Position numbers and translations under genes: made by a program | In this document: positions 7,618-17,739 of the stretch, one piece after another | How the letters are laid out: each line of letters starts with the position of its first letter | How positions within the stretch are numbered: position 1 is the first letter of the stretch | Source of the DNA: Blattabacterium cuenoti | Lineage (GTDB): Bacteria; Bacteroidota; Bacteroidia; Flavobacteriales; Blattabacteriaceae | Length of the DNA stretch: 64,000 nt | Reading direction: 5' to 3' | Assembly: GCF_014251575.1 (NCBI RefSeq) | Contig: NZ_CP059191.1 | Span: forward strand, 372,001-436,000 | The notes under the pieces: generated by a model | The model's input: only the letters and a program-made list of their open reading frames with translations | Told to the model about the DNA's origin: nothing | Database searches by the model: none

Positions 7618-9912
7618 GTGTATAAAAAAAGTATAAAATCTTATTTTCGTGTGCTTCTTTTTTATTTTTGGTTTTTCTTTTTTATAGGAATAAGTATTAT
7701 ATTTTTAATTTTTTATGCAGCATCTAAAGGTTATTTGGGAGCTTTGCCTAATACTAAAGATATAGAAACCCCTACTATGGAAGTAGGATCGGAGGTGTAT
7801 GACTCTAATGGAATACTCTTGGGAAGATTTTTTTCAGAAAATAGAACTTTAATCACTTATAAACAACTTCCGAAAGATCTTGTTAATGCTTTAATAGCAA
7901 AAGAAGATATTCGTTTTAAATATCATTCTGGTATTGACGCTAAATCTCTTCTTAGAGCGATTCTTTCACTTGGTAAAAAAGGTGGTGGAAGTACTATATC
8001 TCAGCAATTAGCAAAACTTCTTTTTACAGGACCATCTGCAAAAAATAAATTGCAAAGAATTCATCAGAAACTTTTAGAATGGGTCATGGCTATTGAATTG
8101 GAAAAACGTTATACTAAAGAAGAAATTATTACGATGTATTATAATAAGTTTGATTTTTTATATAATGCAAAAGGGATAGAAACAGCCGCTCACACTTATT
8201 TCAATAAAAAAGTTTCTGAACTTAATTTAGGAGAATGTGCTACATTGGTTGGAATGTTAGAAAATCCTTCTTTATATAATCCTAAAAATTATCCTAAAAG
8301 AGCAAAAAAACAAAGGAATTTAGTTTTATATCAAATGAGAAAATATAATTTTTTAAATGCATATAGGTATGAAAAAGAATTGGAAAAACCTGTAAAAATT
8401 AATTTTAAAATACAAAAAAAAGATTTTGAATTGCTTACTTATTATGGTGAATTTTTAAAAAAAGAAATTCAAGAAGCTTTAGACGAACATGAAAATCAAA
8501 CTGGGCAAAAACTAAATCTTTATTCTAGTGGTTTAAAAATATATACATCTATTGATGCAAGAATGCAAGATTATGCAGAAAAAGCTGTAAAAACACACCT
8601 CAGTAAATTACAGATTTTATTCAATCATTTTCAAAAAAAAAACAAAAATGCTCCATTTTTGAATATATCTCAAGAAAAAACAAAAAGAATATTAATATCT
8701 GCTATGCATAGAACTTCTCTTTACCAAGATTTGAAACAAAAAGGATTAACAGAAGAAAAAATTTTAGAAAAATTTAAAAAGCCACAATCAATAAAATTGT
8801 TTACTTGGAATGGACCAAAAAAAGTATTAATCTCTCCATGGAATTTTCTTCGTTATCAAAAAAGTATTATTCAAGCTGGTTTGTTATCTATAGAGCCATC
8901 TACTGGGTTTATAAAAGCATGGGTAGGGGGAATAGATTTCAATTATTTTCAATATGATCATGTGGCACAAACACAACGTCAAGTTGGTTCTGTTTTCAAA
9001 CCCATTTTGTATGCTACTGCTATTAATGAATTGCATTATAATCCTTGTACAAAAATTTCAAATGAAAAATTTCATTTAGGAAAATGGAGTCCTAGGAATT
9101 CTAATGGAAAATATGGAGGATCCCTTACATTAAAAGATGGTTTAGCTTTATCTGTAAATACGATTTCAGCCCGCTTGATATCACAAATTACTCCAGGTCC
9201 AGTAATTAGTTTAGCAAAAAAAATGGGTATAAAATCTATGATTCCTGAACATCCATCTATAGCTCTTGGTTCTGCAGATCTAACATTATATGAAATGACA
9301 GGAGCATTCAATACATTTACCAATTATGGTTTTTACGTAAAGCCCAGTATTTTAGTTAAAATAGAGGATGAAAACGGAAATTTAATCAAAGAAAATATAG
9401 ATCTTAGCAGAAGACAAGTTTTTAGTGAAGAAGTAGCATATATTATGTTAAAACTAATGCAAGGAGTTGTTAAATATGGAACAGCTAAAAGATTACAGAA
9501 ATATAATATTATAGGAGATATAGCTGGAAAAACTGGAACAACTAATGAAAACTCAGATGGATGGTTCATCGGAATGGTCCCCAATTTAACTACTGGAGTT
9601 TGGGTTGGTTGGGAAGATAGATTTTCTCATTTCGAGAATATTAAATTGGGGCAGGGAGCGAATATGGCTTTGCCTATATGGGCCTATTATATGAAAAATT
9701 TATATAAAGATATTAATCTGATTTATAATCATCAATTATTTTTTCATAAACCTAAAAATTATCAATATCATTGGGATCAATGTGAGGAAAATCATCTGTT
9801 CAAAGAAGAAGAAAATATTATTGAAGAAAAAGAAAATAAAAATTCTTTGAAAGAAATTATAGATATTAATGAAAATTTAAATAATGAAAATAATAAAGAT
9901 TACGATAAATGA
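7618..9912 (+). CDS. mrcA: Class A penicillin-binding protein (PBP1A-type)
   Basis: The 764-residue bifunctional peptidoglycan synthase starts at GTG 7618, the only usual start after the in-frame TAA at 7606. One signal-anchor helix (about residues 10-33) is followed by a GT51 glycosyltransferase domain (ALIAKEDIRFKYHSGID; GGGSTISQQLAKLLF). The transpeptidase domain has SVFKP with the active serine near 457, SVN near 511 and KTGTT near 638. The C-terminal tail is acidic and glutamate-rich. It polymerises and crosslinks glycan in the periplasm. Its TGA overlaps the next gene's ATG (ATGA at 9909-9912). Confidence 0.93.
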   Translation: MYKKSIKSYFRVLLFYFWFFFFIGISIIFLIFYAASKGYLGALPNTKDIETPTMEVGSEVYDSNGILLGRFFSENRTLITYKQLPKDLVNALIAKEDIRFKYHSGIDAKSLLRAILSLGKKGGGSTISQQLAKLLFTGPSAKNKLQRIHQKLLEWVMAIELEKRYTKEEIITMYYNKFDFLYNAKGIETAAHTYFNKKVSELNLGECATLVGMLENPSLYNPKNYPKRAKKQRNLVLYQMRKYNFLNAYRYEKELEKPVKINFKIQKKDFELLTYYGEFLKKEIQEALDEHENQTGQKLNLYSSGLKIYTSIDARMQDYAEKAVKTHLSKLQILFNHFQKKNKNAPFLNISQEKTKRILISAMHRTSLYQDLKQKGLTEEKILEKFKKPQSIKLFTWNGPKKVLISPWNFLRYQKSIIQAGLLSIEPSTGFIKAWVGGIDFNYFQYDHVAQTQRQVGSVFKPILYATAINELHYNPCTKISNEKFHLGKWSPRNSNGKYGGSLTLKDGLALSVNTISARLISQITPGPVISLAKKMGIKSMIPEHPSIALGSADLTLYEMTGAFNTFTNYGFYVKPSILVKIEDENGNLIKENIDLSRRQVFSEEVAYIMLKLMQGVVKYGTAKRLQKYNIIGDIAGKTGTTNENSDGWFIGMVPNLTTGVWVGWEDRFSHFENIKLGQGANMALPIWAYYMKNLYKDINLIYNHQLFFHKPKNYQYHWDQCEENHLFKEEENIIEEKENKNSLKEIIDINENLNNENNKDYDK

Positions 9913-10913
9913 TCAAAAGAATATTAGTTTTAGAAAAAAATCATCCTTTTATTATATACAAACTAAAAAAAGAAGGATTTATTTGTGATGAAAATTATTA
10001 TGACTCAACCGATAAAATTGATATATCTGTATATGATGGGGTCATTTTAAGAAGCAGATTAAAAATAGATAAAAAATTTATTAAAAAAGCTAAAAACTTA
10101 AAATTTATAGCTAGAATTGGATCTGGAATAGAAAACATAGACAAAGATTATGCTTCAAAAAAAGGAATCACTTTAATTTCTTCTCCAGAAGGGAATAAAG
10201 ATGCTGTAGCAGAACATGCAATAGGAATGCTTTTATGTATCATGAACCATATCATTCCTTCTCATCAACAAATTAAAAAAGGAAAATGGGATAGAGAAAA
10301 TAATAGAGGAATGGAAATCATGGGAAAAACAATAGGGATTATTGGATATGGAAATACTGGAAAAGCTTTTGCAAAAAAACTTTCAGGATTTGATGCTAGA
10401 ATATTATGTTATGATATTTTACCTAAAATCGGTGATACTTATGCAATGCAAGTTGACATGAATACAATTTTTAAAAAATCAGACGTAATCAGTTTGCATG
10501 TCCCTTATACAAAAGAAACAAAAGGAATGATTAATTATAATTTTATAAAAAAATTTTACAAGCCTTTTTATTTGATAAATACTTCTCGTGGGGGATGTGT
10601 TCTAACAAATCATTTAGTCAAAGCATTAAGAAACGGAAAAATATATGGAGCTTGTTTAGATGTATTAGAGTATGAAAATTTTTCTTTTGAAAATATTTTT
10701 CATTATCATAAACTTTCAAAAAATTTTTTTGATCTTATTCATTCTAATAAAGTTGTATTAACTCCACATGTTGCTGGATGGACTCAAGAATCAAAATCCA
10801 AGATGGATAAAAAAATTGTCGAAAAAATTCTTTTATTAAACAAACTATTAATTGAAAAAACAATTATACAAAATCCTCACGCTCCAGATAATTACCAAAA
10901 TTCCTATAGATAG
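9909..10913 (+). CDS. serA: D-3-phosphoglycerate dehydrogenase-like 2-hydroxyacid dehydrogenase
   Basis: The 334-residue D-isomer-specific 2-hydroxyacid dehydrogenase has a split catalytic domain (LKFIARIGSGIENID near 75), a Rossmann NAD motif GIIGYGNTGKAFAKKL near 145-160, NTSRGG carrying the catalytic Arg near 226, and TPHVAGW with the catalytic His near 286. It lacks the ACT regulatory domain, as in the short flavobacterial SerA. It would supply phosphohydroxypyruvate for serine, the carbon donor for cysteine. The start overlaps the PBP stop. The last 66 nt overlap the convergent TauE frame; the final residues look unconserved and may be a read-through extension. Confidence 0.85.
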   Translation: MIKRILVLEKNHPFIIYKLKKEGFICDENYYDSTDKIDISVYDGVILRSRLKIDKKFIKKAKNLKFIARIGSGIENIDKDYASKKGITLISSPEGNKDAVAEHAIGMLLCIMNHIIPSHQQIKKGKWDRENNRGMEIMGKTIGIIGYGNTGKAFAKKLSGFDARILCYDILPKIGDTYAMQVDMNTIFKKSDVISLHVPYTKETKGMINYNFIKKFYKPFYLINTSRGGCVLTNHLVKALRNGKIYGACLDVLEYENFSFENIFHYHKLSKNFFDLIHSNKVVLTPHVAGWTQESKSKMDKKIVEKILLLNKLLIEKTIIQNPHAPDNYQNSYR

Positions 10914-11990
10914 AAACATTATTTTTATAGGAAGTTTTCCGGATATTTTTGCTGCTAAAGGCGCAGCAAATAATCCTCCAAAAACTAATCCAAAAACTAT
11001 TCTCCAGTAGTTAATTCCTAATAAAGAAAAAAAAGTTAAAGTACTCGAAAGAGTTACAAAAAATTCAGATAAACTTACCGATCCTATAACATATTTTGGA
11101 GTTCTTCCCTTTGATATTAAAGTGCTAGTAACAAAAGGGCCCCATCTTCCACCTACAAAAGAATCTAAAAAACCTCCACATCCTGCGAGACACCCTATTT
11201 TTCTAGTTTTTTTGTGATCCTTTTTCCATGTCTTTAACAAAATTTTAACTCCAAAGAAAAAAGTATAAGAAGCTAACATTGGTTTAAAAATAGCGTAAGA
11301 CTCTCCAAATTTAGCAAGCAAAAAAGCTACAACAATAGAACCTATAACTCCTGGGATAAGTAATATTTTAAATAATTTTTTGTTTACATTTCCCATCTTA
11401 TAATGACTCAATCCAGATATTCCGCTAGAGAATATCTCTGCAGTATGTATACTAGCACTGATTGAAGGAAGAGGAATTCCAAAAGAAAGTAATATAGTCG
11501 TACAAGTTAGACCATATCCCATTCCTATAGCTCCATCAACGAGTTGTGCAAAAAAACCAGTAAAAATTAGATATAAAAAATTTTGATTAAAATGATCCAA
11601 TATTTTTTGAAAAAAAATACTTTTTGTTAAAAAATGTAGAAAAAAACTGATAGTAATAATAAGTCCTATTATAAAAAACAAATACTTTATTAAATTTTTA
11701 TGTAATTTGTTTTCTTTCAATGATGTTTTTTTGATCAACCATTTTTCAGTTATTAAATTGAGAATTTTCACTTTATATTCAAAATTTCCTTTTAGTTTTT
11801 TTCGTATTTTACACATATTTATCAACACGTCATCTAATTCATGTGGTAAAACATTTATAAAAATTTCTTTCAAACTGTAGGAGACTTTCCGTTAGTAGAA
11901 ATAGCTATCTTTAAATTTCCTTTTTGTACAATAGACCCCATATAAAAATCACAAAGATCAGGAGCATCAGGAACATTAACCAATTTATGG
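10848..11990 (-). pseudogene. 5'-truncated siroheme synthase N-domain / TauE-SafE permease fusion
   Basis: Two frames form one broken gene. From 11989 down to about 11877 the frame reads HKLVNVPDAPDLCDFYMGS, then IAISTNGKSPTV and a stop: the middle of a precorrin-2 dehydrogenase (CysG N-domain). After a frameshift with loss of about four codons, the 341-codon frame ending at 10848 resumes at KEIFINVLPHELDD, completes that domain and runs into a full TauE/SafE permease (about 8 membrane segments, GFFAQLVDGAIGMGYGL, CGGFLDSFVGGRWGP). The first ~105 residues of the dehydrogenase are gone, removed by the same deletion that truncated cysI. The permease half could still be made from TTG 11873 or the ATG about 20 codons later, but this is unproven. 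Confidence 0.8.
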
Positions 11991-12815
11991 ATCTTCAGAA
12001 TCAGAAAAACCAATTACAGTTCCTAACCTAGAATAAGTTTTATAATTACCATGAGTAGTAGATAATCCTCCTCCAACAGATATGTTAAACCCTTTTAAAA
12101 TTTTAGATTTATTGTCAATAATAGCAATTAAACCTATATCATTAGCAAAAACGTCGACATCATTATTAGGAGGGATTGCTATAGAAATTTTGAATTTACT
12201 AGGTAAATAAGTTTCCTTGTAAAGAGGATCTTTTTCTTCTTTTTTTTCATATATCTTATTTCTATCTAACCAAATTTCATAGTAATATTTTGTTTTAGGA
12301 AGTAACATATTGCTAATTTTAGTAGCATAATTCAAAATTTCTTCACGAGAGTATTTACTGTCTATATAGGTACTGCATACCACATTTCTGTTAACATCTC
12401 CACATGTAGCAATAGAATCCAATTGATGAATATCAAAAAATTGAATAGTTGGTTTTATTTTGGATTTTATCAATCCATGTAATTGAATTATTTGTCTAGT
12501 CGTTATTTTGATGACTCCAGTTGAATTTTATTCTGAAATATTATGAATAGATACCCATTGTTTATGATTGATAAGACCTCCTGGAATTCTTAAACGTATC
12601 ATAAAAGAATATAATCTTTCCAGTTTTTTTTTAGATCTCTCTTTTCTTATATCTCTATCATCTTGTTGATAGAACCCATGAAATTTAATAATTACTTGAT
12701 CGTCATCATAAAGACCACCAGATAATTCATTTTGTAAACTATCTATAAGAGTCTCCCTAAGTCCTATGCTTTCTTTTTTTATTTTTTCTTATTTTGTTAT
12801 ACGAGATATTTTCAT
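11985..12815 (-). pseudogene. cysI: Sulfite reductase hemoprotein (CysI), nonsense-mutated and 3'-truncated
   Basis: One reading frame from ATG 12815 encodes recognisable CysI: IKFHGFYQQDDRDIRKER, YSFMIRLRIPGG, ITTRQIIQLHG, CGDVNRNV, IAIPPNNDVDVFANDIGL and VGGGLSTTHGN. It is interrupted by two in-frame TAA codons (12789-12791 and 12528-12530). After about 270 codons homology ends abruptly at GFSDSEDP and the DNA becomes the siroheme synthase remnant. The C-terminal half, with the four cysteines that bind the 4Fe-4S cluster and siroheme, is missing. It starts 31 nt after cysJ. The open 162-codon piece ending at 11985 is a fragment and not a gene of its own. Confidence 0.92.
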
Positions 12816-12846
12816 GTTTACAAAATTGAATTTTTCATCAATTTTT

Positions 12847-14507
12847 TTAGTATACGTCTTTTAAATATCTTCCATGTTTTTTCATTTCTTTCATAAAAGA
12901 TTCTGGATCACATCCTCCTACTTCCTCTATTACACGAAAGATCATTTTTTCAACATCTATGCTCATAGGATTTTTTTTTCCACAAACATAGATATATGCT
13001 CCATTTTTTATCCATGAAAAAAATTCTATTCTATTTTCCCATATTTTATCTTGTACATATATTTTTTTTTCTTGATCTCTAGAGAAAGAGAGACTGATTC
13101 GATTAAGAACTCCTTTTTTTTTCCAATTTTGGATTTCTGTTTGATACAAAAAGTCTGAATAAAAATGTTGATCTCCAAAAAATAGCCAATTTTTCCCTGT
13201 AGCTTCTATAGCTTCTCTTTCATATAAAAAAGAACGAAAAGGAGCTATTCCGGTTCCAGGTCCAATAAGGATTATGTCTTTTTCAGAATTTTTTGGTAAT
13301 CTAAACAATTGATTTCTATAAATAAAAAATGATAATTTTTCTCCTTCCTTTAACTTAGATAAAAAATCAGAGCAATGACCATATACAGTTTCTCCATTCA
13401 ATTGAAAACTATGACGAGATACAGTAATATGTATTTCATTATAATGAGCTTTAGGAGAAGAAGAAATGGAATATAATCTTGGTTTGATAGGTTCCATTAT
13501 TTTTATTAAATCTCTTAATGAAAATTCCTTTTTTATAGGAAATTCTTTTAAAAGATCAATCAGTTTCCATTTTCGATTAGAAGGAATATTTTTTTTTTCA
13601 GATAAAAAAGAATATTTTTTTAAAAAATTATCTGATAAATTAAAAATATTAAATTCTTTCTTGAAAAGATTAAATATATTTATTTCAGATCCTTTTTTTT
13701 TTCTATTTCTTAAAATATATTCTATAATATCATGTATTTCATTCGAAGAATTTTCAGGAAACACTCCTATAGAATCACCCGGAAGATATTTAACTTCATT
13801 TTGAACAGAAATTTCAACATGATAAATTTCTTTATTAGACCCTCTTTTTTTATCACTTAAAAGGATATTATTCAAAACTTTTCCACATATTTTTTCCCTT
13901 CTATTTTCTGTATTTTTTTCATATTTTTTTTTTGAAAAAAATTCAAAATTTCTAAAAACCATTTATTTGCTTTTTCTTCATAATCGACATCACATTTATG
14001 CAATGGAACGATTCTGATTGCTCCTATGTTATTCAAACGTTTATCTACATCGACCCCCGCTTTACAAAAGTAAGAATAAGATTTATCTCCTAAAGCTAAT
14101 ACACTGTATTTTAAATGATTAAGATTAATTTTTTGATTTTCATGAATAAAATCAAAAAAATCTTTTGCGGAAGAAGGTGGTTCTCCTTCTCCATGTGTAC
14201 TAATTATTACGAATAAATAATCTTCTTTTTCCAAATCTTGCAAACGATATTGATCTAAACTCATCAATTTCATTTGCAATTTTTTATTTTTTGCTTTTTG
14301 ATAAATGTCAAAAGCTAAATTTTTGGCATTTCCTGTCTCTGTCCCATAAACTAACGTAATTTTTTCCTCTTTATTTAATTCTTTAGAAGATTTTTTAGTA
14401 TTAGAAGATAATAATCCAGACATATAGCCACACATCCAAATAATCTCTTCTATAGAGGATTCTTTGATTAAATTAAAAAATGTTTTTTTATTTGATTCAG
14501 ATAACAT
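12847..14507 (-). pseudogene. cysJ: Sulfite reductase flavoprotein (CysJ), frameshifted at an A10 tract
   Basis: Two overlapping frames are halves of one protein. The first (ATG 14507) carries the flavodoxin domain: TLVYGTETGNAKNLA, STHGEGEPPSSAKDFF, LALGDKSYSYFC. The second, ending at 12847, carries the FAD/NADPH reductase: LPGDSIGVFPENS, RLYSISSSP, GPGTGIAPFRSFL, YVCGKKNPMS. In the overlap both frames encode similar Lys-rich peptides, which places the shift at the T10 run 13924-13933 (A10 in coding sense). One extra A, or two fewer, restores a continuous flavoprotein. A second A10 tract (13589-13598) is in frame. The partner CysI is dead, so even a rescued product would lack its usual role. 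Confidence 0.88.
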
Positions 14508-14542
14508 TTTATTCAATTTTATAAAAGAAAATATTAATAAAT

Positions 14543-14703
14543 ATCACTCAAAATAATTTTTTTTCTCTTTGAAATAATGATGTAAAACCACTATTTTACC
14601 TACAATGACTAAAAAGAAGGAGACATAAAATGATTCAAAGCTTTTATAGTAATCAAATCAGGATCTCCTGGTCCTGCTGAAAAATTACTTTTTTTGTTAT
14701 CAT
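14543..14703 (-). pseudogene. cobA: Uroporphyrinogen-III C-methyltransferase (SUMT/CobA) remnant
   Basis: From ATG 14703 the frame reads VIFSAGPGDPDLITIKAL, matching the SUMT N-terminal motif (VGAGPGDPxLITxKA), and stops at 14608. Another frame from 14605 to 14543 gives IVGKIVVLHHYF, which loosely resembles the later VGK..G.H segment, so an internal deletion is likely. The rest of the ~250-residue enzyme is absent. The ATG overlaps the cysK TGA (ATGA), preserving the ancestral operon junction. The intact enzyme would make precorrin-2 for siroheme, the cofactor of sulfite reductase. Confidence 0.8.
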
Positions 14704-15611
14704 AAAAAAAGATTTTCAACTGAAAGATATCTTTCTCCAGTATCATAATTAAACGTCAATATTATGGATTTTTCAGAAAAATTAGATAATTGTTGATCTA
14801 TAGCAGATAGAACCGCTCCTGTAGAGATTCCAACAAGAATTCCTTCTTTTTTTGCTATTTTACGAACAAAAGTAAAAGCATCTTCTTTTGAAACTAAAAA
14901 AGATCCATCTAATATTTTTACATTCAAAATGGAAGGGATAAAACCTGCACCTAATCCTTGTAAAGAATGCGGATTTGATTCGCCTCCAAATATCACTGGA
15001 GATTCCACAGGTTCCACAGAAAAAATTTTTAGATTAGGATATTTATTTTTTAATACTTCTCCTATACCAGTAATATGTCCACCAGTTCCAACTCCTGTAA
15101 TAAAATAATCTATTCCTTCAGGAAAAGCATCTATGATTTCTTTTGCTGTTGTATTTTTATGAATATTTGGATTAGATATATTATCAAATTGTTTAGGCAT
15201 CCAGGAATTAGAAATTGTATCAATTAGTTCTTCTGCTTTTTTAATAGCACCATTCATTCCTTTTTCTCTTGGAGTTAAAACAAATTTTGCTCCAAAAATA
15301 GAAAATAATTTTCTTCTTTCAATACTCATAGATTCTGGCATGACTAAAATAAGACGATAATCTTTCACAGCACAAACCATAGCTAATCCTATTCCTGTAT
15401 TTCCAGAAGTAGGTTCTATGATAATATCTCCTTTATGGAGGGCTCCTTTTTTTTCAGCATCTTCTATCATAGATAGTGCTATTCTATCTTTTATACTTCC
15501 TCCTGGATTATTTTTTTCTAATTTCATCCAAATTTGGTGATTCGGATATAATTTATTAAGACGAACATGAGGTGTATTTCCAATAGTTTTTAAAATACTA
15601 TCAAATTTCAT
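14700..15611 (-). CDS. cysK: Cysteine synthase (O-acetylserine sulfhydrylase)
   Basis: The 303-residue fold-type II PLP enzyme is full length and uninterrupted. [13 protein letters not shown] near 33-45 contains the PLP lysine. [12 protein letters not shown] near 67-78 and [15 protein letters not shown] near 175 bind substrate and PLP phosphate, and [11 protein letters not shown] lies near the C-terminus. It joins O-acetylserine and sulfide to give cysteine. It lies 17 nt downstream of cysE, its substrate supplier and likely complex partner. It is one of only two intact genes in this operon, so selection for cysteine synthesis probably persists although the reductive branch is broken. Confidence 0.96.
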
Positions 15612-15628
15612 TTTTTTTCTTTTTTTTA

Positions 15629-16453
15629 TTATATCATAAAATTAATAGGATCAGGAAAAGGACTATTATTTCTCATTTTTATTTCGCTTTTTTGATATAC
15701 TATAGAAAAAGGAGGAACACTTCGTGTTAACCAAACATTTCCTCCAATTACACTATCATGACCTACTATAGTTTTTCCTCCTAAAATCGTAGCCCCCGCA
15801 TAAATAGTAACTTGATCTTCTATAGTAGGATGACGTTTTTGATTAGATAATTTTTTATCCACATGAATAGCTCCCAAAGTAACTCCTTGATATATTTTAA
15901 CTTTATTTCCTATTTTTGTACTGGAACCTATAACTATTCCTGTTCCATGATCAATTGCAAAAGATGTCCCTATTTCTGCAGATGCATGAATATCTACTCC
16001 TGTTTTACTGTGTGCATATTCTGTAATCAATCTTGGAATAATTGGAATTTTCTGAATCCAAAATTGATGAGCTATTCTGTATAATGCAGTAGCGAAAAAA
16101 CCAGGGTAAGAAAGAAAAATTTCTTCTACAACTGTTGCAGCAGGATCAGATTCCAAGATAGCATAAGCGTCTATTATCAATGTTTGATAAATATTGGGAA
16201 GTTCTTCAAAAAATTTTTTAGAAAGATTATTAGAATTTTTTTGATCAATATTTAATTCAAGAAAAATTTCATATAAAAAATTAAAGAGTTTTTTATAATT
16301 CTTTTTGAGAAAAACTTTATTTTGTAAAGTATATCGATCAGAAGTAAATAGAAAATTAAATAAAGCTTCTATAAATTCCTCAGATTTTTTTTTATTAGGA
16401 AAAGGATTTCTTTTTTTGTTATCTTCAAATATAATATTTAAAAAATCTAACAT
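15629..16453 (-). CDS. cysE: Serine O-acetyltransferase
   Basis: The 274-residue protein has a helical N-terminal region (about 1-150, including [35 protein letters not shown]) and a left-handed beta-helix of hexapeptide repeats ([54 protein letters not shown]). The His of DHGTG is a conserved catalytic-region residue. It acetylates serine to O-acetylserine for CysK. It sits 14 nt downstream of the cysHN chimera and 17 nt upstream of cysK, and no disruption is seen. Confidence 0.95.
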
Positions 16454-16467
16454 TTATTTAATTTAAT

Positions 16468-17739
16468 TTATTGAATCATACAAGCAGCCACTGTAGAATA
16501 ACTTGTTTCATCTATTAAAATGCAAGATCCATTTTCTTTTATTTTTTTATAAGGATCATGTGGAACTGGTACAGATGTTTTTACTTTCACTTTAACTAAA
16601 TCATTCAACACAGCATGATCAGGTGTATTTTCTTTTTTTAGAGTATTCACATCTATACGATAAAAAATATTTTTAATCCGAACTGTAACTTGAAAACAGT
16701 GAATTTGAAATAAATACTGATTTCCCATTTTTAATGGTTTATTTGACATCCAGAAAATAATCATCTCAAATTCTTGAGAAAAAATAGGAAGATCATCATC
16801 TTTTTTCACTATAAGATTTCCACGAGAAACGTCTATTTCATCTTCTAAATACATAACTATACTCTGTGGATAAAATCCTTCCTCTACTCTTAATCCACAT
16901 TTTTCTATTTTTTTTATAAATGTATGATTTTCATATGGATAAATGATAATTTCATCTCCAACTTTATATATTCCACTAATAATTTTTCCAGCATATCCAC
17001 GAGATGTATCATACTTATTACTGGAACGAATGACATATTGAACTGTATATATAGAAGCTTCTAAATAAGTTTTTCTTTGAATCACAACATTTTCCAATAA
17101 AGAAAAAAGACTCGGTCCAGTATACCATTTCATATGATATGATTTATCTACTACATTATCTCCATTTTTTGCACTAATTGGAATCATGTCTACGTCATTT
17201 AAACCTACTGGATGATATTTAATCAAATGATATTTTGAATCCCATTCCAAATCATTCAATTTTTTTCTTTCTACAGAATGTTCTGCACGCAATCCAGTGA
17301 CCCATACAAAATTTCCTTGTAAAGCTCTTTTTAGGGGTTCTACTTTGCGTAAAAAACAACATTTTATTCTATTTTTTACATTATCATAAAATGAATTTGG
17401 TCCATTTTTTGACAAAAAATCCTCTAATTTATCTTGATTAGGATAATAAGCAGAAATAGAATATTCATAAAATTTATTTGTATCTTTCCAAACTTTATAA
17501 GTTTCTTCAAACAACCTTCCTGTATCTAAAGTGAATATTTTTATGGAAATTTCATTTGATAAAATAAAATGAGAAATTAATTGATCCTCAATATTCAAGA
17601 TTGTAGAAAAAACGATTTTTCCTGTAAAAAAATTTGAAAGAGCTCTTAATTTATCCTCTACAGAAAAAGAGGACTTGATTTCTTTTGAAAGATCAGATAA
17701 ACATTCTTGTGATGAAATTTTCCATTTCATATTTTTCAT
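16468..17739 (-). pseudogene. In-frame deletion chimera: CysH N-terminal region fused to CysN C-terminal region
   Basis: The open 423-codon frame is two unrelated halves. Residues 1 to ~177 match PAPS/APS reductase (IVFSTILNIEDQLI, FTLDTGRLFEET, NRIKCCFLRKVEPLKRAL, WVTGLRAEHSVERKKLN, LIKYHP). From ~178 the protein matches sulfate adenylyltransferase subunit 1 from its G5 motif onward (DMIPISAKNGDNVV, MKWYTGPSL, VQYVIRSS, RGYAGKIISG, DEIDVSRGNLIV). Missing are the CysH C-terminus with its catalytic Cys region, all of cysD, and the CysN P-loop, switch and NKxD motifs. The deletion junction is near 17195-17210. Neither activity should survive. The frame is open by chance or recency. Confidence 0.9.

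Follow-up and report, generated by a model that had tools for sequence, protein, structure and literature searches.

The reductase half of CysJ is retained and repeatedly trimmed where sulfate assimilation has collapsed in Blattabacterium

A 64,000-nucleotide window of Blattabacterium cuenoti DNA (positions 372001-436000 of one 633,713-bp contig, genome G000) carries on its minus strand the remains of an operon for sulfate assimilation; this analysis chiefly concerns the gene for the flavoprotein of sulfite reductase, cysJ, and the retention of its reductase half throughout the genus. In relatives with an intact operon (G030, G005, G042) the order of genes is cysH, cysD, cysN, cysE, cysK, cobA, cysJ, cysI and a cysG::tauE fusion. 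The cysJ gene of G000 is read as two open frames, one of 211 amino acids that contains the flavodoxin domain (13872..14507, minus strand, as are all features of the operon; PF00258, 4e-33) and one of 371 amino acids that contains the NADPH/FAD reductase domains resembling ferredoxin-NADP reductase, or FNR (12847..13962; PF00667, PF00175), which match residues 1-198 and 190-555, respectively, of the intact protein. The frame changes at a run of ten A in the interdomain linker (13924..13933), and the lesion is a one-base difference in the length of this run; the gene is in frame in G005, G030 and G042. The first matches to the cysE gene of G000 are six B. cuenoti records with 65-75% identity. 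A small plasmid carried by some Blattabacterium strains (PMC6039017) is not present in the G000 assembly.

The other lesions lie on both sides of cysJ. Upstream, a frame of 423 amino acids (16468..17739) fuses the N-terminal part of CysH, the reductase of 3'-phosphoadenosine 5'-phosphosulfate or adenosine 5'-phosphosulfate (PAPS/APS), to the C-terminal part of CysN; separate alignments of cysH and cysN place the junction near position 17211, with codons 1 to about 175 of cysH joined to cysN from codon 170 or so, and comparison with G005 and G030 gives a deletion of 1,666-1,673 bp that took away all of cysD, with the end of cysH before it and the start of cysN after it. The cobA gene (uroporphyrinogen-III methyltransferase) is a remnant with approximate ends (14560..14703), affected by a single 604-bp deletion and smaller gaps, of which codons 8-29 alone are still recognized. 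Downstream of cysJ, cysI is a remnant with in-frame stops (11990..12815) that is cut at about codon 276, where a 1,172-bp deletion links it to codon 105 or so of cysG, and the last frame (10848..11873, 341 amino acids) begins with a C-terminal remnant of cysG and continues into an entire TauE/SafE (TSUP) permease domain. Two genes are intact: cysE, encoding serine acetyltransferase (15629..16453, 274 amino acids; 100% of the reference covered, zero stops), and cysK, encoding cysteine synthase (14700..15611, 303 amino acids, full length). Genome-wide searches of G000 found no second cysH or cysD (PF01507 has one match), no cysI beyond the remnant, no second cobA and no second cysN, the four other and weaker cysN matches (29-33% identity) being taken for translation GTPases; cysG was sought at this locus only. 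Functional CysD, CysN, CysH, CysI and CobA are missing from G000, as is CysG from the locus, while CysE and CysK remain. An earlier sequence-only reading of this DNA had described the same gene order and lesions, with clean cysE and cysK, and alignment to the operon-bearing relatives G005 and G030 agrees with it in these respects, as does the absence of second copies.

The loss of the operon by G000 can be placed in time. G000 is nested in a clade with G005, G030 and G042, all of which have the full operon, and this clade is present in 40 of 40 bootstraps of a tree built from seven proteins (FastTree, midpoint root); the operon was therefore lost on the G000 branch, and the loss is recent and lineage-specific. 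Substitutions on this branch were counted as synonymous versus nonsynonymous from protein-guided alignments of cysH, cysN, TauE and the two halves of cysJ, and from a DNA alignment for cysI, which was countable only in that way. The pooled remnants of cysH, cysN and cysI have a ratio of 30:55 on the G000 branch versus 58:44 on the G005 branch, which is relaxed constraint (p = 0.003, or 0.008 without the two cysI stops); taken singly, cysI alone falls below 0.05 (cysH, p = 0.08; cysN, p = 0.46; cysI, p = 0.03). The ratio for cysE and cysK together is 22:17 versus 37:26 (p = 0.84), so the constraint upon them is unchanged, and the proposal that selection was lost on the reductive branch and kept on cysE and cysK is supported by the counts. 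The reductase half of cysJ (16:20 versus 21:35) is not relaxed on the G000 branch; the ratio for the flavodoxin half is 8:13 versus 16:8 (p = 0.08).

Comparison with the genus was made over 49 Blattabacterium genomes, G000 included. The state of the operon was read from 17-kb stretches of 48 genomes and separately in G041; cysI was searched genome-wide in all 49, and cysH, cysD, cysN, cobA and cysG of the relatives were read from the 17-kb stretch only. The cysI gene is intact in eight genomes, a remnant in three (G000, G045, G001) and absent from 38. G040 was scored as intact on the basis of its 17-kb stretch, which shows no stops in cysI; the genome-wide match has two stops, with a query that starts upstream of the start codon. 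G043 carries the operon. Where cysI is not intact (41 genomes), the 17-kb stretch never has an intact cysH, cysD, cysN, cobA or cysG, and of these same genomes 40 have cysE, 40 have cysK and 40 have an uninterrupted FNR half of CysJ (the cysE gene of G001 was scored as kept, with its stop at codon 269 in a match of 271 codons). The sole operon gene that G041 retains intact is cysJ; cysK is gone and cysE is a fragment. The tree implies ten independent losses of the operon, and since some nodes are poorly supported (0.02-0.47, including the node that unites G036 with G007, a pair used below) the number is given as a range, 8 to 12, over the bootstraps (8 in one, 9 in five, 10 in 17, 11 in 16 and 12 in one). 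Loss is not rare, and stages of decay that can still be read are not as uncommon as the sequence-only reading supposed: G045 and G001 have readable remnants of several operon genes, and G003, G012, G021 and G025 have fragments of cysH. G001 (L065) is a richer example of an operon in mid-collapse than G000, having nearly all of the operon genes as remnants (with 27 stops in cysH, nine in cysD and 16 in cobA) together with an intact cysK. The inclusion of the Mastotermes symbiont among known losers of the pathway was mistaken according to PMC6039017, which gives the pathway to that strain (BMda); the same source, as excerpted, names the Periplaneta strain with the complete pathway inconsistently (BPja in the abstract, BPfu in the text). 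The collapse of sulfate assimilation in G000 is real, but collapses like it were already known.

What deserves to be followed is the reductase half of CysJ, which has been retained and trimmed repeatedly. It is present in 49 of 49 genomes and uninterrupted in 48; PF00175 has exactly one match in every genome, always at the CysJ locus, and no PF00175 protein other than CysJ was found in any of them. PF00258 has one match at the same locus in 41 genomes, and 31 alignment columns of the flavodoxin domain are invariant over these 41 strains. The commonest form of cysJ is full-length in a single frame. Selection on the gene was estimated from nine non-overlapping pairs of strains in which both members lack cysI, seven of which have the flavodoxin half; since neither member has cysI, their divergence is taken by parsimony to postdate its loss. 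The pooled ratio of nonsynonymous to synonymous differences per site (pN/pS) is 0.39 for the reductase half over the nine pairs (range 0.20-0.55; 481/1,734 synonymous versus 821/7,590 nonsynonymous; p = 5e-65); over the seven pairs, the flavodoxin half has a pooled pN/pS of 0.35 (range 0.19-0.58; 211/735 synonymous versus 333/3,312 nonsynonymous; p = 6e-35); five pairs that carry the operon have pN/pS of 0.19-0.43 over both halves of cysJ. The reductase half of CysJ is under purifying selection after the loss of cysI. The treatment of cysJ as just another damaged gene of the reductive branch does not stand, given where its frame is broken and how widely its reductase half is kept.

The breaks and truncations of cysJ fall mostly at the boundary of its domains. 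Three strains (G000, G032, G035) encode the diflavin protein in two frames, and 37 of the 38 other strains with PF00258 encode it in one; in all three the frame breaks at residues 190-206, within the interdomain linker, and in G035 and G032 the break is also at a run of A. A frameshift in the linker divides the protein between its domains, so that both halves remain readable and are not destroyed. The flavodoxin domain is gone from eight genomes and was lost five times on the tree (four times in 14 bootstraps, five in 26). Seven of the eight begin their remaining match at residues 197-209, the eighth (G037) having a stop-bearing remnant that extends back to residue 154; in G006 and G014 the reductase begins three bases past the stop codon of cysK, and B. 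cuenoti AMAZOsp (NZ_CP059220.1, L083) has a reductase-only form of 360 amino acids downstream of cysK. Runs of at least ten A number 35 in the 3,387 bp of linker from 41 genes versus 29 in the 64,875 bp that make up the rest of cysJ, and 32 of the 41 linkers have such a run. A mutational hot spot coincides with the site where a break would do the least harm, and the two causes are inseparable here.

These runs raise the possibility that transcriptional slippage restores the frame and that G000 still makes full-length CysJ, a proposal by analogy to which somewhat less than an even chance is given. The site is a run of ten A in linkers enriched for such runs, rescue of frameshifts has been reported for genes of Blochmannia and Buchnera (PMC3017870), and the reductase half has not accelerated on the G000 branch. 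The gene has the features by which slippage genes are recognized, namely a frameshift in at least nine A's within an otherwise conserved sequence, apart from a flavodoxin half that has perhaps accelerated. The likeness to Blochmannia and Buchnera is that of an A-run frameshift in a conserved gene of an AT-rich endosymbiont; the difference, as far as the excerpts of that paper go, is that the run of G000 lies at a domain boundary and that other Blattabacterium lineages have lost one domain entirely. Slippage leaves the eight strains without a flavodoxin domain unexplained. For G035, neither half of cysJ is significantly relaxed in comparison with two sisters, and G032 is without a near relative for the count. 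An error of sequencing or assembly in the homopolymer of G000 would account for a one-base difference in a long run of A where G005, G030 and G042 are in frame, and is unlikely to be the explanation: the same linker is the site of the break in G035 and G032, though likewise at runs of A, and the large deletions elsewhere in the operon are improbable products of such an error.

The best solved structure for the reductase half is 1ddg (E 1e-72), a sulfite reductase flavoprotein that we take to be E. coli CysJ, followed by P450 reductases and FNRs. G000 has the same FAD and NADPH domains as 1ddg and differs in having lost CysI and in encoding the flavodoxin and reductase domains in separate frames. 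The motifs for FAD and NADPH and the C-terminal motif, with the functional roles presumed for their conserved columns, are retained in the reductase-only forms, which thus have the FAD and NADPH domains expected of an NADPH-dependent ferredoxin/flavodoxin reductase. Neither the halves of G000 (179 and 363 bits) nor two reductase-only forms (261 and 299 bits) reach the 668-bit cut-off of TIGR01931 (cysJ); judged by sequence, the protein is CysJ by descent and not as a whole chain, and in G000 it has no CysI with which to work. In E. coli, the flavoprotein of sulfite reductase serves ribonucleotide reductase as a flavin reductase, and with FAD and NADPH motifs kept in the reductase-only forms, the half could have been retained as a flavin reductase (for example to restore the radical in the aerobic ribonucleotide reductase or to mobilize iron) that feeds neither ferredoxin nor radical S-adenosylmethionine (radical-SAM) enzymes. 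This is considered rather unlikely; the flavin mononucleotide domain, for which a simple flavin reductase would have no use, is conserved at the pooled pN/pS given above wherever it is present.

The explanation of the whole that is thought quite probable is that sulfate assimilation has collapsed and that the reductase half of CysJ is kept as a source of electrons from NADPH for other acceptors. Deletions and stops removed the activation of sulfate, the reduction of APS/PAPS, the haem subunit of sulfite reductase and the synthesis of siroheme. CysE and CysK, which are retained under selection, most likely fix sulfide from outside into cysteine. The FNR half most likely passes electrons from NADPH through its FAD to acceptors other than CysI, since it is the sole PF00175 protein and is kept with or without CysI. 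A candidate acceptor is a 4Fe-4S ferredoxin: a small Fer4_7 protein (open frame of 83-141 amino acids) was counted by hand in 49 of 49 genomes, and that of G000 belongs to the YfhL family. Through this ferredoxin, or directly, the reductase might supply the radical-SAM enzymes LipA, MiaB and MtaB, all three of which are encoded by G000 (PF04055 has 3-4 matches per genome across the genus); when NADPH feeds them, pairs of flavodoxin or ferredoxin with FNR can activate radical-SAM enzymes, and ferredoxin/FNR has been shown to do so for MiaB (PMC10470005). The linker frameshift of G000 may be an early step toward the reductase-only form of the eight other strains. A stronger version, for which the balance of belief and doubt is even, is that throughout the genus CysJ moonlights as the only reductase from NADPH to ferredoxin or flavin, even beside a working sulfite reductase, that the gene owes its retention after the loss of CysI to this hidden role alone, and that repeated trimming at the domain boundary (about five losses of the flavodoxin domain and three splits) is producing a free-standing enzyme like FNR, with G000 at the stage of the split.

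Other partners and a second reductase were looked for. An FNR of the thioredoxin reductase type was sought among the four matches to PF07992 above cut-off in G000, which are TrxB and two dihydrolipoyl dehydrogenases (all above their curated cut-offs) and one other that passes no cut-off among the best 25 of 55 families and that we equate with the ndh described in PMC2768785; there is also a fifth match, below the PF07992 cut-off. No stand-alone 2Fe-2S ferredoxin was found: the single PF00111 match of each genome lies in a frame of 253-275 amino acids, and the protein is taken, from its size and family, for subunit B of succinate dehydrogenase. The isoprenoid enzyme IspG is rejected as a client, being encoded by none of the 49 genomes.

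Several observations weigh against the retention of CysJ as an electron source. In G027 a frameshift lies inside the reductase half, leaving the NAD-binding domain open, and in G001 a frameshift lies near the N-terminus of cysJ. Constraint is weak between G041 and G001 (pN/pS of 0.63 for the FNR half, p = 0.03; 0.55 for the flavodoxin half, p = 0.04), and pN/pS is 0.51 (reductase) and 0.35 (flavodoxin) for G045/G021, 0.49 and 0.55 for the reductase-only pairs, and 0.40-0.58 for G036/G007 and G028/G024. The flavodoxin half of G000 may be decaying. TIGR01931 is still the top-scoring family, with no sign in the sequence of a new specificity; the check for an FNR like thioredoxin reductase covered G000 alone; and YfhL is no more than a candidate partner, the identity of the acceptor being a best guess. 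Apicoplasts can dispense with LipA and MiaB, which ferredoxin/FNR feeds there, and it is IspG and IspH that are essential (PMC8844926). The broken frame of G000, the hint of relaxation in its flavodoxin half and the weak constraint between G041 and G001 could also be read as plain decay, the view of the sequence-only reading, in which cysJ is a pseudogene like its neighbors and its deletion merely pending. Plain decay is nonetheless held to be very improbable: the reductase half persists in 49 of 49 genomes over about ten independent losses of the operon, and its pooled pN/pS is 0.39 where both strains lack cysI.

The loss of the pathway and the proposed retention of CysJ as an NADPH electron source have partial parallels elsewhere. 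In Blattabacterium strain Pam of Periplaneta americana, as in G000, cysN, cysD and cysI are missing, cysJ is present and H2S is assumed to be the source of sulfur (PMC3287516); in the metabolic model of Pam, however, cysH and cysJ were deemed isolated genes and their reactions removed, and the excerpted text proposes no further role. Import of hydrogen sulfide is already published for Pam. In whitefly symbionts, too, host or gut has been put forward as a supplier of hydrogen sulfide (PMC4438442); a paper on the Bge model discusses siroheme genes (PMC3819652); and the synthesis of cysteine overlaps between host and symbiont (PMC9603385). In the aphid symbiont Serratia symbiotica, cysJ is among the conserved genes with truncated or missing domains that are called dwindling genes (PMC5013485), but the excerpts leave unstated which part of CysJ was lost, the status of cysI and the function. 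The apicoplast resembles Blattabacterium as a reduced, endosymbiont-derived compartment in which LipA and MiaB are presumably supplied by a reductase fed by NADPH, and differs in having a 2Fe-2S ferredoxin with FNR, where Blattabacterium has a reductase derived from CysJ, a candidate 4Fe-4S ferredoxin and no IspG (PMC8844926). In the literature consulted on sulfate assimilation and gene loss in Blattabacterium and on cysJ in symbionts, which includes comparative studies of gene loss in part, no proposal of a second role for CysJ was found, and no mention of sulfate or cys genes was found in PMC11050582, PMC4567559 or PMC8878154. If the reductase half is the sole source of low-potential electrons linked to NADPH, it is a core gene, and metabolic models lack an essential reaction; the genus would then be a natural experiment, replicated by about ten losses, in the conversion of a subunit into a stand-alone enzyme. 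In a symbiont, an orphan cysJ can readily pass for a leftover, and a gene annotated as frameshifted may be divided between its domains rather than dead.

The TauE permease domain at the end of the operon was included by the sequence-only reading among the damaged parts together with siroheme synthase. The siroheme part is indeed truncated, but TauE is complete in G000, matched over 282 of 282 residues with no stop and by PF01925 over positions 1-233 of 237 (115.7 bits). G030 and G005 also have cysG::tauE joined in a single long frame; the fusion was therefore not caused by the damage, and the siroheme part alone is truncated. Substitutions in the TauE domain (20:8 on the G000 branch versus 28:16 on the G005 branch, p = 0.61) indicate unchanged constraint, and on the G000 branch TauE differs from the remnants (p = 0.001). 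Among the 41 genomes without intact cysI, TauE is kept in the 17-kb stretch of G000 alone. The domain was not found in the 17-kb stretch of G047 (L067), which retains cysG and the rest of the operon, so TauE is dispensable to an otherwise intact operon. The TauE of G000 may still transport a sulfur compound, or its decay may not yet have begun. In G042 (L034:12104-13587), cysG and TauE are in two overlapping frames of 209 and 297 amino acids, which is another interdomain break.

In the window, the end of the TauE frame overlaps by 66 bp (10848-10913) the end of a serA-like gene on the plus strand (9909-10913). This neighbor has no tblastn match over more than 60% of its length in the stretches of G006, G009, G010, G011 (a fragment), G014, G015, G023, G029, G038 and G039, and these ten genomes all fall in two clades of the tree. 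An icd-like neighbor has no tblastn match (E 1e-5) in the stretches of G007, G018, G019, G021, G024, G028, G036, G040 and G045, and has been either lost or moved. A penicillin-binding-type protein of G006 (L073:5326-7863) has tandem NQNDENHQS units at its C-terminus, and its counterpart in L083 ends in a different repeat rich in Asn and Glu.

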